Virus record (IMG/VR): IMGVR_UViG_3300043395_001957
Location: 1 to 62,622 of that record
Origin: a virus
Strand: one strand, 5' to 3'
DNA: 62,622 nt
Shown: piece after piece, positions 29,084 to 62,622 of the stretch
Position numbering within the stretch: the stretch's first letter is position 1
Layout of the letters: each line of letters opens with the position of its first letter
Notes under the pieces: model-generated
Told to the model about the DNA's origin: nothing
Database searches by the model: none
The model's input: only the letters and a program-made list of their open reading frames with translations
Made by a program: the position numbers and the translations under genes

Positions 29084-29115
29084 TTTGGAAAATGTAAAAC
29101 TTTTTCGTACATTTA
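29084..29115 (+). promoter_or_regulatory. Promoter of the small RNA (A)
   Basis: TTTG (29084-29087), 20 bases ending TTTTTCG, then TACATTTA (29108-29115). The same layout with TTTCG directly before the -7 box drives the B small RNA and the plus-strand genes at 29376. Confidence 0.8.
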
Positions 29116-29120
29116 TGTTA

Positions 29121-29238
29121 AGTAAGGAGAAGGACTTAATTAATACTGATATTTACTACACTTTTTGCATCAGTGTCCTTCAACTTTCATATAAATAGCC
29201 CCCCTGCGGTTGGTGCCATCTCCGAGGGGGGCTTTCTT
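29121..29238 (+). ncRNA. Structured small RNA with terminator (A)
   Basis: About 118 bases from promoter to terminator with no open frame. Helix 1 pairs AAGGAC (29130-29135) with GTCCTT (29175-29180). A 9-base 5' bulge TTAATTAAT follows. Helix 2 pairs ACTGAT (29145-29150) with ATCAGT (29169-29174), directly adjacent on the 3' side, closing an 18-base loop. The RNA ends in a 9 bp hairpin AGCCCCCCT (29197-29205) / AGGGGGGCT (29225-29233) plus a T-rich tail, with GTGCCAT in its loop. Unit B has the same architecture at 61678-61788 with changed but still paired bases. Function unknown. Confidence 0.8.
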
Positions 29239-29261: not shown

Positions 29262-29290
29262 TAACTCATTGATAATCAACACGTTATAAA
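29262..29290. repeat. Operator-like dyad repeat, copy 1
   Basis: A 29-base exact direct repeat of 29311-29339. Its first 25 bases form the dyad TAAC-N3-TTGAT-N-ATCAA-N3-GTTA, the size of a dimeric repressor site. It stands upstream of the plus-strand promoter at 29376. Not found in unit B. Confidence 0.65.
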
Positions 29291-29310: not shown

Positions 29311-29339
29311 TAACTCATTGATAATCAACACGTTATAAA
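29311..29339. repeat. Operator-like dyad repeat, copy 2
   Basis: Second identical copy, 49 bases (about 4.7 helical turns) downstream of the first, 37 bases ahead of the -33 box of the plus-strand promoter. The spacing allows cooperative binding. Confidence 0.65.
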
Positions 29340-30883: not shown

Positions 30884-31372
30884 ATGTTTTACATTTATCA
30901 CATACCAGGAGTTAAAATAGGTTGCTCTACACAACCAAAAACGAGAGTAAAGAGACAAGGATACGATTATTATGAATTATTAGAAACTCATAATGATATC
31001 AATATTGCTTCTCAAAGAGAATTAGAATTACAAAAAGAATATGGATATAAAATAGATTCAACTCCATATAAACAAAGTTATGAGTGGGTAACAAAAGGTA
31101 ACCCATCAATTGAACCAATGTTAGATGGTTATAGAAAATGGGTAAAAGAGAACCCAGAAAAAGTAAAAGAAAATGCTAGAAATGGTGGATTAAAGCAAGG
31201 TCCAATTCAAGGTAAAAAAAATGTTGAAAGTGGTCACATATCAGCATTAGGTAAAAAAAATTCAGAATTTAATAATCGCATTAGAACATGTCCTCATTGT
31301 AATATTGTAACTAGAGGTGTTGGTTATGAAAGATGGCATGGTGATAAATGCCGAAATAAATCTAATCCTTAA
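30884..31372 (+). CDS. GIY-YIG homing-type endonuclease inserted on the plus strand (A only)
   Basis: A 162-residue protein: N-terminal GIY-YIG-like part (MFYIYHIPGVKIGCSTQPKT, then RVKRQGYDYYELLET, a Glu in RELELQKEYG), a middle with KENPEKVKENARNGGLKQG repeats, and a C-terminal CPHCNIVTRGVGYERWHGDKC finger. It is opposite in strand to its neighbours, sits between two genes that are adjacent in unit B, and overlaps the MPVN gene tail to tail by 11 bases. All this points to a mobile homing gene. Confidence 0.8.
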   Translation: MFYIYHIPGVKIGCSTQPKTRVKRQGYDYYELLETHNDINIASQRELELQKEYGYKIDSTPYKQSYEWVTKGNPSIEPMLDGYRKWVKENPEKVKENARNGGLKQGPIQGKKNVESGHISALGKKNSEFNNRIRTCPHCNIVTRGVGYERWHGDKCRNKSNP

Positions 31373-31694
31373 AATCAGGATGGTCTTCTTCCGGAATACA
31401 GTTTGGCACAGAAACTCCACCCATATCCTTCATACCCAATTGGCGGTATCCACTTTGGCACGGGTCTTCACCTTCTTCAGCTAATAAATTAATACCTTTG
31501 AATTTAGTATCATAAGCTACTCTAGCCATTACTTTAGCTGATGTATCTTTTATCTTACTCATATTTTCTTTTTCCCAATATGAGTAGCAAATAGCAGCTG
31601 AAACATCTTGTTCTTTACCTGATGCTATTTCTTCTCCTATACAACGGCTGATGAACTCTTGTTCAGTTTCGCCTGCTCTTACATTTACTGGCAT
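31362..31694 (-). CDS. MPVN small protein (A side)
   Basis: A 110-residue protein: MPVNVRAGETEQEFISRCIG then EE-AAICYSYW, a pattern of small structural-region proteins in Bacteroidota phages. The C-terminal half (DPCQSGYRQLGMKD...VPNCIPEED) has two Cys like the B copy (DACWEGYEAIG...VPNCVP). Its first codons lie in the shared 136-base stretch. Function not known; the AAICYSYW motif is sometimes attached to structural or protease-associated proteins. Confidence 0.8.
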   Translation of the reverse strand: MPVNVRAGETEQEFISRCIGEEIASGKEQDVSAAICYSYWEKENMSKIKDTSAKVMARVAYDTKFKGINLLAEEGEDPCQSGYRQLGMKDMGGVSVPNCIPEEDHPDFKD

Positions 31695-31786
31695 TAGTTA
31701 TCTACTTTATATGTTTTATTATTAAAACGAACTTTATATACTGTATTAAAGTCCAATGTTCTCCAATCTCCATCTAATCCAACAAC
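31651..31786. repeat. 136-base stretch shared exactly by units A and B (internal copy)
   Basis: This stretch spans the start of the 110-residue MPVN gene and the end of the next 110-residue gene. It matches 62496-62622 and continues as 1-126. Mismatches flank it: base 31650 is g where 62495 is t, and base 31787 is a where base 127 is g. It is the point at which unit A sequence changes into unit B sequence. Confidence 0.9.
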
Positions 31787-36963: not shown

Positions 36964-37577
36964 AATTCGTAGTATCCTCCTATATCAAATTTTACTTTTG
37001 TATTAATCGCTTCACCTTCTTGCACACTCCACTTACTAAATGGAACAATTCTAAAATCCACAGAAACCCTACTCCTGTTCGTTTGGTTGAGTTTATTTCC
37101 GTGAGTTAACCGAACACCTTCCCACATAATAAACTCTCCGTATTGAGCTTCTAATGGGGTATAATCACCCTTATCTTCTTCACTCTCTGCCCAAATAGTA
37201 TTGGTATCAAAAGCATCAGTAAAAGGTAAAAAGAAATTAATCTCTGCTTGGTTATGATTATATTGTTTATCCTTATGCCATTCACCAACACCTACATTGT
37301 TTGGTGCTTGTATTCTGAATGTTGGTATTTTTTGATACACAATTGGTTCGCCGAATAGTGGCATTACCTGTTCTTTAACAAAATCATCGTATATTGGTTT
37401 CATATACTGAAAATTATCATAGTATTTTCTATGCACTTCAGTTTTTTGGTCATTTTCTCTTTTAAGTAAGTCAAATTGATATTGTTTATGCAACATATTT
37501 AACTCCTTTGTACCATAAATCAACCCTAATACTTCCAAAAATGGATAAGTTTGGGTATTATAATCTAATTTTATCAT
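36954..37577 (-). CDS. 2-oxoglutarate/Fe(II) oxygenase-like protein (B only)
   Basis: A 207-residue protein with the iron triad spacing of 2OG dioxygenases: WHKDKQYNH (H101, D103), distal LTHGN (H159) and a 2OG-binding Arg in RSRVSVDFR (about R168/R170). A jelly-roll reading is supported by alternating strands (AEINFFLPFTDAF, FIMWEGVRLTHG). Such enzymes hydroxylate amino acids, peptides or sugars. Overlaps of 4 bases upstream and 10 bases downstream tie it to the glycosyltransferase and FkbM genes. Confidence 0.75.
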   Translation of the reverse strand: MIKLDYNTQTYPFLEVLGLIYGTKELNMLHKQYQFDLLKRENDQKTEVHRKYYDNFQYMKPIYDDFVKEQVMPLFGEPIVYQKIPTFRIQAPNNVGVGEWHKDKQYNHNQAEINFFLPFTDAFDTNTIWAESEEDKGDYTPLEAQYGEFIMWEGVRLTHGNKLNQTNRSRVSVDFRIVPFSKWSVQEGEAINTKVKFDIGGYYELCK

Positions 37578-59852: not shown

Positions 59853-60065
59853 TTATAAAATTGAAATTGTTTCTGAATAATCTTTACACGTCCATTGATT
59901 CATTGTAACTCGACGTCTATCGCAGCCACAATTTGAATAACCTAACTTTCTAGCTACCCAATATGCCGCTGATTTTCCGTGGCCTAATGTAACTAATCCA
60001 ATGATGTGTTCTAATATGCTTCCTAATCTGATGAAGCATCCTACTTTGTATAATATCTTTTTCAT
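59853..60065 (-). CDS. Small protein with NCGCDRRR motif (B)
   Basis: A 70-residue relative of 27380-27574: hydrophobic helix (LGSILEHIIGLVTLGHGKSAAYWVARKLG) and CGCDRRR. Overlaps the GIY-YIG gene by 4 bases. Confidence 0.7.
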   Translation of the reverse strand: MKKILYKVGCFIRLGSILEHIIGLVTLGHGKSAAYWVARKLGYSNCGCDRRRVTMNQWTCKDYSETISIL

Positions 60066-60424
60066 GCTAGTCCTAATTCTTTTAATTTTCTTAATTTTTC
60101 TTGTCTTGCTCTTCCGCCTTTTCCTGATTTACCTAACTCTGCAACCAAACCTGATGCAACATTTACTTCAGCTGCTTTCTTTCCACCTTTGTATGATTTC
60201 TCTAATGCAACTCTATAATCACGAGATGGATTCCAACCATAACCATATTTCAGATTAAGTTCCTTTTCCGTATCTGCTGCTTCATCAATATCGGTAAATG
60301 TAAGGATTTGTGTTACATCATTAATTGTGTAACCTCTTCTATTATATAGAGCTTTCAATCTCCTTTCTAAATTTGCTGTGCAACCCCATTGCTTTCTTTT
60401 GGGTATGTGATATACATAAAACAT
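60062..60424 (-). CDS. GIY-YIG-type nuclease (B only)
   Basis: A 120-residue protein starting MFYVYHIPKRKQWGCTANLE, then RRLKALYNRRGY and a Glu in ADTEKELNLKYGYGWN, a compact GIY-YIG pattern. The C-terminal KGGRARQEKLRKLKELG is basic. The start resembles that of the plus-strand nuclease at 30884 in unit A (MFYIYHIP), so the two are probably related and have inserted at different places. Confidence 0.7.
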   Translation of the reverse strand: MFYVYHIPKRKQWGCTANLERRLKALYNRRGYTINDVTQILTFTDIDEAADTEKELNLKYGYGWNPSRDYRVALEKSYKGGKKAAEVNVASGLVAELGKSGKGGRARQEKLRKLKELGLA

Positions 60425-60666: not shown

Positions 60667-61242
60667 TTAATTTTCTGTGTTAAATAATTCATCAAAGCTT
60701 TGTGATATCTCTTGTTTAGTCATTTTATTAATATCTCTTGCTTTATCCATTTCCAGGACAATGTCCCTAACATTGTCCGTTGCTTTATCCTTATCAATAT
60801 CCATATCCTTATCCTTAGCCCTTACGTTACCATTATCATAGGGTATAGTAATGGTTGTATAAGGGTTATCTAACCCTTTACTAACAATTGGTAAAGTGTT
60901 ATCATTTGGTTTAATAATGCTATGGGATAGTAATAATTCTCTTGCTGATTTTACAGCAGGTGCATTATTAGTAAAGAAATTCTTATACTGAAATGTAACA
61001 AACTTTGGTATAAACCATTTGTTATTATCAGCAATGTAAATTCTTTCTTTAAGATATTCAATGATATCTTCTAAACTTCTATCAGTCCCTGTGTAGAACT
61101 TAATAGTTTTTAAACTTGGTTTATAAACACCTGCATGGTCACAAGCATCTAATAAGTACAACCATACTAATTTCATATCAGCTGGTAGTTCAGTAAACCA
61201 TTCATCATTCCATTTGTTGGAGTCTGTTAATCTTTTTGCCAT
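60667..61242 (-). CDS. Replication organiser, DnaD/phage_rep_org-like (B only)
   Basis: A 191-residue protein. Residues 1-110 match the winged-helix start of phage replisome organisers (NKWNDEWFTELPADMKLVWLYLLDACDHAGVY, LEDIIEYLKERIYIADNNKWFIPKFVTFQY). The rest is a charged tail with alternating KDKDMDIDKDK, normal for these proteins. It would load host replication proteins at the phage origin. Unit A has nothing similar. Confidence 0.8.
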   Translation of the reverse strand: MAKRLTDSNKWNDEWFTELPADMKLVWLYLLDACDHAGVYKPSLKTIKFYTGTDRSLEDIIEYLKERIYIADNNKWFIPKFVTFQYKNFFTNNAPAVKSARELLLSHSIIKPNDNTLPIVSKGLDNPYTTITIPYDNGNVRAKDKDMDIDKDKATDNVRDIVLEMDKARDINKMTKQEISQSFDELFNTEN

Positions 61243-61639: not shown

Positions 61640-61671
61640 TTTGGAAATACGGAAATTATTTCGTAAGTTTG
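61640..61671 (+). promoter_or_regulatory. Promoter of the small RNA (B)
   Basis: TTTG (61640-61643), 20 bases ending TTTCG, TAAGTTTG (61664-61671). Full match to the Bacteroidota pattern. Confidence 0.85.
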
Positions 61672-61677
61672 TTAAAT

Positions 61678-61788
61678 GAGTAGGAGCTTAAAGAATACCG
61701 ATACATTTTTTTAATCTATTGTCGGTGCTCCTCATATATCTCTATATAACCGCCCTCCTTCGTGCCATTTGGGGGGCGGTATTTTTTT
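61678..61788 (+). ncRNA. Structured small RNA with terminator (B)
   Basis: Counterpart of the unit A RNA. Helix 1 pairs AGGAGC (61682-61687) with GCTCCT (61727-61732). The 5' bulge is TTAAAGAAT (9 bases). Helix 2 pairs ACCGATA (61697-61703) with TGTCGGT (61720-61726), closing a 16-base loop. The terminator hairpin is ACCGCCCTCC (61749-61758) / GGGGGGCGGT (61771-61780) with one U-G pair, GTGCCAT in the loop and T7 after. Four paired positions differ from A by double changes that keep pairing, while bulge ends and the GTGCCAT loop are kept. Confidence 0.82.
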
Positions 61789-62239: not shown

Positions 62240-62539
62240 TTATTCCTTTATAGGTACACAATTGGGAACTTCTCTACCATCTAAAATCTTTGTACCTATG
62301 GCTTCATATCCTTCCCAACAGGCATCCTCTAATCCTTCTAATAAGTTTATACCTTTCCAAGCATCTTGTCTTAATTTAGATGCTACTTTACCTTGAGTAC
62401 TCATATTGGTATCTTTTCTCCAATAGGAGTAACAGATAGCAGCTGCTTGCTCTTGTTCGTATCCACCTGATACTTCTTCTCCTATACAACGGCTTATGAA
62501 CTCTTGTTCAGTTTCGCCTGCTCTTACATTTACTGGCAT
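62240..62539 (-). CDS. MPVN small protein (B side)
   Basis: A 99-residue relative of 31362-31694. The first 14 residues are identical, AAAICYSYWRKD is kept, and the C-terminal half has DACWEGYEAIG and VPNCVPIKE. In this unit it directly precedes the membrane coiled-coil gene, with no nuclease inserted. Confidence 0.8.
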   Translation of the reverse strand: MPVNVRAGETEQEFISRCIGEEVSGGYEQEQAAAICYSYWRKDTNMSTQGKVASKLRQDAWKGINLLEGLEDACWEGYEAIGTKILDGREVPNCVPIKE

Positions 62540-62622
62540 TAGTTATCTACTTTATATGTTTTATTATTAAAACGAACTTTATATACTGTATTAAAGTCCA
62601 ATGTTCTCCAATCTCCATCTAA
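62506..62622. repeat. Terminal direct repeat, right copy
   Basis: Identical to bases 1-117. The shared stretch starts 10 bases earlier, at 62496, and is cut by the end of the window. Confidence 0.95.
62539..62622 (-). CDS. Partial: 3' end of the 110-residue protein gene
   Basis: Last 27 codons and stop of the gene found whole at 34-366; cut by the window end. The sequence is the same as 34-117. Confidence 0.9.
   Translation of the reverse strand, partial: LDGDWRTLDFNTVYKVRFNNKTYKVDN

Follow-up and report, generated by a model that had tools for sequence, protein, structure and literature searches.

Phage-encoded small RNAs with a loop seed that changes together with the start of a neighboring endonuclease gene: a probable antisense family

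Introduction

Phage homing endonucleases are known to be restrained by hairpins in their own mRNAs, and in the mRNAs of T4 I-TevI and Aeh1 mobE these hairpins sequester the ribosome binding site (PMC3014915). Antisense RNA has also been linked to a homing endonuclease gene in a lytic phage, as CfrI of cyanophage S-PM2 is an RNA of ~225 nt that extends in antisense through both the endonuclease gene and psbA (PMC2984593, PMC12197685). The type I antitoxins SymR and RalA are small RNAs directed against translation of the nearby nuclease genes SymE and RalR, the latter prophage-encoded; SymR overlaps its target, and RalA is Hfq-dependent and base-pairs within the coding sequence (PMC4147584). Phage P22 encodes sar, an RNA which interferes with translation initiation of the phage antirepressor gene, with no family of changing loop seeds described there (PMC12197685). 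In a search of the open-access literature we found no report of a homing endonuclease under the control of a trans-acting RNA.

Here we describe a family of phage small RNAs that would share with the I-TevI and mobE hairpins the holding down of a homing endonuclease by RNA pairing at the translation start (PMC3014915); however, in those systems the mRNA itself carries the inhibitory strand, whereas here it would be a separate RNA with its own terminator. Unlike CfrI, these RNAs do not overlap the endonuclease gene on the opposite strand, and complementarity is confined to a short loop seed. A separate trans-acting RNA of this kind would be new, and, if our reading is correct, represents a new way for phages to control selfish nucleases, in which seed and target change together. 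It would also give Bacteroidetes-type phages an sRNA family with a defined target and provide a natural record of the re-targeting of an antisense seed.

Organization of the record

The window, by which we mean the whole stretch of DNA analyzed (62,622 nucleotides, IMG/VR record IMGVR_UViG_3300043395_001957), contains three identical copies of a repeat (1-117, 31661-31777, and 62506-62622), giving a unit A of 31,660 bp and a unit B of 30,845 bp that are related across most of their length (~68-95% identity where aligned). Many of the related IMG/VR records consist of one unit only, with a length of 30-33 kb, and in two other contigs (G002 and L002) the end of unit A runs directly into its start. 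The record is probably two related, diverged phage genomes of ~31 kb that were joined by the assembler through the shared repeat. Because the units look like separate phage genomes, we regard their small RNAs, A and B, as orthologs and not as copies within one genome. A nucleotide search for isolate relatives found none, and a terminase and portal search of 84,980 genomes for a host or prophage gave no match. No copy of the RNA was seen in Nonlabens phage P12024L, whose portal protein is 33% identical.

Table 1. Features of the two small RNA loci and of their candidate targets in the window.
Feature	Position	Strand	Details and basis
Small RNA copy B (unit B)	61671..61788, ends approximate	+	Covariance model R1 108 bits, R2 97 bits; fold z -4.1
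Copy B promoter, Bacteroidetes-type	61640..61671	+	TTTG 61640-61643, TAAGTTTG 61664-61671; sequence, pattern
Copy B hairpin 1	61682..61732	+	Fold; covariation across 16 members
Copy B hairpin 1, parts			P1 61682-61687/61727-61732; bulge UUAAAGAAU 61688-61696; P2 61697-61703/61720-61726
Copy B seed hairpin/terminator	61749..61788	+	Stem 61749-61758/61771-61780, loop UUCGUGCCAUUU 61759-61770, T-run; fold
Small RNA copy A (unit A)	29117..29238, ends approximate	+	R1 92 bits; fold z -3.4
Copy A promoter-like elements	29084..29117	+	TTTG 29084-29087, TACATTTATG 29108-29117; sequence
Candidate target, unit A: zinc-ribbon GIY-YIG endonuclease gene, 174 aa	27724..28248	-	Model resembles I-TevI catalytic domain
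Weak candidate target, unit B: early gene, 191 aa, possibly replication-related	60667..61242	-	Start AUGGCA, 6 bp only

The RNA family

Both RNAs have the same layout, in which a P1 stem is followed by a bulge of 9 nt confined to the 5' side, a P2 stem capped by an A/U-rich loop, a linker, and then a GC-rich hairpin and a run of T's, and the fold of each was better than that of all 200 of its dinucleotide shuffles (z scores in Table 1). They are members of a family of structured RNAs (~120 nt) that we identified in more than 30 related phage contigs with covariance models built from eight and then 16 sequences. No family in Rfam 15 reached its gathering score, the best hit being 17.7 bits vs. 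a cut-off of 44.2. Among the 16 members, 16 of the 18 base pairs have changed on both sides (89 such alignment cells vs. 26 expected) and 95.7% of the cells are paired, far above slid controls; this alignment was fitted to the structure and so leans toward it, and a MAFFT alignment of eight sequences had already given 11 of 18. The G-U pairs in the family fit this strand only, and the elements that stay constant are the UUAA of the bulge and a single C-G pair close to the P2 base. A weak covariance model match elsewhere in the window (37219-37333, 22 bits) was judged to be false.

The spacing between the TTTG and TAAGTTTG elements of copy B is that which we take to be typical of Bacteroidetes promoters. 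A strict form of the promoter pattern was matched by 11 of 34 family members, and did not pick up the elements upstream of copy A, which are a weaker match. Just 3' of copy A there is a 29-bp direct repeat (29262-29290 and 29311-29339, around CATAACTCATTGATAATCAA), and sequence similar to it also follows the RNA in two other contigs (L035 and L046).

The first-pass annotation had noted that the terminator stems of the two RNAs differ and that both loops contain GTGCCAT, and the folds confirm this, placing the heptamer in the loop at 61762-61768 in copy B and 29213-29219 in copy A. The heptamer is not enriched in the window (five occurrences vs. 6.3 expected); the signal is its position inside homologous hairpins with changed stems and not its frequency. 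The further proposal that the loop heptamer is invariant did not hold among ~35 homologs, in which the loop is mostly GUGCCAU with GUGCCAG, GUGCCAA, UUGCCAU, UUGCCAA, and GUCAUU also found; as described below, the loop is conserved only where the start of the target gene is and elsewhere changes with it. Approximately eight phages have a separate terminator downstream of the seed hairpin, which does not serve as one itself but still carries the seed in its loop; this argues that the loop is maintained for a role of its own. Inspection by eye revealed no internal pairing partner for the seed. Mimicry of a tRNA anticodon or the 16S 530 loop by GUGCCA was considered and dropped, as the motif is variable and a closing stem is not consistently present.

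Joint change of the seed and the endonuclease start

The forms of the loop track the sequence around the start codon of a GIY-YIG or HNH endonuclease gene close by, where the corresponding sequences are AUGGCAC, AUGGCAA, CAAUGAC, and AAUGACAAA. With a GUGCCAU loop the adjacent endonuclease gene often begins AUGGCAC, and the loop UUGCCAU is found with the start AUGGCAA (G027), the loop GUCAUUG with the start region CAAUGAC (G032, G056, and G057), and the loop UAGUCAUU with the start region AAUGACUA (G036). In two phages with the loop GUGCCAG (G007 and G033), UUGGCAC lies just upstream of the start and pairs with one G-U. A protein search yielded two new phages, L303 and L372, in which the gene starts AUGACAAA and the RNA loops (UUUGUCAUU/UUUUGUCAUU) form 9 bp with it; these RNAs were read after the protein search and the fitting seed had not been written down as an expectation beforehand. 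On the tree of the target protein the class of seed changes at least two times, and most simply three.

For the 20 phages in which each loop could be compared with the start of the phage's own GIY-YIG gene, the duplex energy was unmatched in 20,000 permutations of the loops among phages. When 38 orthologous gene clusters were scanned without preselection, the zinc-ribbon GIY-YIG cluster came first on two counts: its mean duplex energy was -11.8 kcal/mol, and its z score for loop specificity was -4.3, with the next cluster at -2.4. At least seven contiguous complementary bases at the start were found in 20 of 31 nearby endonuclease genes, which were picked by motif and as a class chosen after matches had been seen, vs. 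28 of 666 other ORFs, and none of the 31 reached such a match in the sense orientation. The outcome was similar for GIY-YIG genes alone (14 of 20 vs. 30 of 585). The P values of these comparisons are too small because the target class is post hoc, the loop boundaries were set manually, and the phages are relatives of one another. Taken with the permutation and cluster results, the comparison strongly supports the earlier suggestion of an antisense seed aimed at the start codon.

In L221 there is a match of 12 nt at the start of an HNH gene, and the HNH cluster by itself had no loop-specific signal (z +0.5). No good pairing site was found in G054, L212, G029, L067, or L218. The loop of the first hairpin, examined as a control and as a possible second seed, reached seven bases in none of 18 cases. 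Two RNAs (L199 1501-1623 and L239 5191-5313) have GUGCCAU in the first hairpin loop and GUCAUUG in the terminator loop, and are possibly cases of two seeds in one RNA; we looked for a second target nearby in these and found none.

The target protein has an N-terminal CxxC...CxxC zinc ribbon. In a structure comparison, its predicted model (pLDDT 83) aligned with the I-TevI catalytic domain (1ln0) at a TM score of 0.83 normalized to the target length (Foldseek probability 1.00, E 0.004), which places it in the GIY-YIG fold; Pfam PF01541 matches it only below the cut-off. Residues Y85, Y95, G97, R106, and E155 are invariant in nine sequences of this protein, and we take these to be the catalytic Tyr, Tyr, Gly, Arg, and Glu. 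Other phages have the match at a gene whose motif marks it as an HNH nuclease, and in one of these Pfam identifies a NUMOD4 motif.

Candidate targets in the window

The RNAs of the window belong to the family but are not its best examples of seed-target pairing. In unit A the start of the GIY-YIG gene (AUGGCAACAA) makes a modest match to the loop (UUGGUGCCAU), of 6 bp, a mismatch, and 3 bp. No endonuclease target gene of the zinc-ribbon GIY-YIG or HNH kind was found in unit B, and consequently the target of copy B is uncertain; the matches there are of 6-7 nt, at the early gene of Table 1 and at the possible start of a small ribbon-helix-helix gene. Two small proteins of the window (30884-31372 and 60062-60424) appear GIY-YIG-like by eye (MFYIYHIP... 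and MFYVYHIP...), and their starts have no seed match.

The tape measure, fiber, and adaptor genes, put forward in the first-pass annotation as possible targets, are not supported by these data, as clusters of structural genes pair little with the loop (loop-specific z -1.7 for the tape measure and +0.4 for the portal; the strongest other clusters were at -2.4 and -2.2). Starts with ATGGCA proved not to be unusual in number (4 of 46 in unit A and 5 of 39 in unit B), Met-Ala starts being common, and ATGGCAC occurs at none of the called starts; a global start-codon regulator was rejected on these grounds.

Proposed mechanism and alternative explanations

We consider it probable, from the sequence comparisons above, that the RNA is a phage-encoded, trans-acting antisense RNA of a new family, with a seed against the start of a nearby endonuclease gene. 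The RNA genes are free-standing and lie 0.15-2 kb from the nuclease gene, on either strand and with no overlap, and at the level of the family the complementarity of the seed is kept by joint change, being weak in A and absent in B. That the loop and the start of the nuclease gene have changed together implies that the RNA very probably holds that gene down. The RNA has a Rho-independent terminator, with a good promoter also present in copy B, and its conserved stem-bulge-stem scaffold is accompanied by a hairpin whose loop displays a seed of ~7-12 nt. The seed would pair around the start codon of a free-standing endonuclease gene that lies no more than ~2 kb away, usually that of the zinc-ribbon GIY-YIG nuclease related to I-TevI and in other phages that of an HNH nuclease. 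Covering of the AUG would most likely block initiation by the ribosome, and synthesis of the endonuclease would then be low, delayed, or limited to conditions in which little of the RNA is present. The computations establish the structure with its covariation, the seed, and the way seed and target have changed in step; we infer that the RNA is expressed and that it represses rather than activates, its purpose perhaps being the timing of homing or protection from the nuclease. A more tentative view, which we judge somewhat less likely than not, is that of a re-targetable leash, in which the scaffold is conserved and the seed follows whichever nuclease, GIY-YIG or the unrelated HNH, is the neighbor, as a phage-encoded control or addiction device against selfish nucleases throughout this phage group.

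The RNA might instead regulate several early genes (replication-related, ribbon-helix-helix, and nuclease) that share AUGGCA or AUGACA starts. In one phage (G060; L285 8771-9761) a 10-nt match to the loop (AAAAUGGCAC) is found at both the GIY-YIG nuclease and a neighboring early gene, in G032 there are 8-nt matches at the nuclease and a ribbon-helix-helix gene, both genes of G063 have AUGGCAC, and an early gene of G054 has GAUGGCA. Such a regulator would account for unit B as well. However, the loop-specific signal of the ribbon-helix-helix cluster is z -2.0 with a weak mean energy (-5.3) and that of the initiator-like cluster is z -1.0, and we regard this explanation as possible but rather unlikely.

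A little less likely again is an addiction pair akin to a type I toxin-antitoxin system, in which free nuclease is harmful, the RNA is the antitoxin, and the purpose is self-maintenance with the pairing mechanism unchanged. The RNA and the nuclease gene adjoin and change together, an antisense RNA near and complementary to a protein mRNA is present in most, though not all, of the phages, and the known type I toxins include the nucleases SymE and prophage-encoded RalR (PMC4147584). On the other hand, the RNA is kept in phages that have no nuclease gene, as in unit B, there is no sign of toxicity of the nuclease, and I-TevI-like nucleases are normally site-specific.

The preferred reading of an antisense seed also has to be set against two explanations that involve no RNA pairing. 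That the shared sequence is a DNA-level signal bound or cut by the endonuclease, such as an operator, is suggested by I-TevI reportedly being a transcriptional autorepressor as well (according to the title of a work cited in PMC3014915), but is highly improbable, as the matches are antisense only, restricted to the unpaired loop of a covarying RNA structure, and tolerant of G-U pairing (G007 and G033). We give hardly any credence to plain terminators whose loop fits Met-Ala starts by chance, for common as ATGGCA starts are, and unenriched as GTGCCAT is in the window, the signal is not reproduced with permuted loops, at other genes, with the loop of the other hairpin, or in the sense orientation, and the complementarity extends to AUGACAAA, CAAUGACA, and AAUGACUA.
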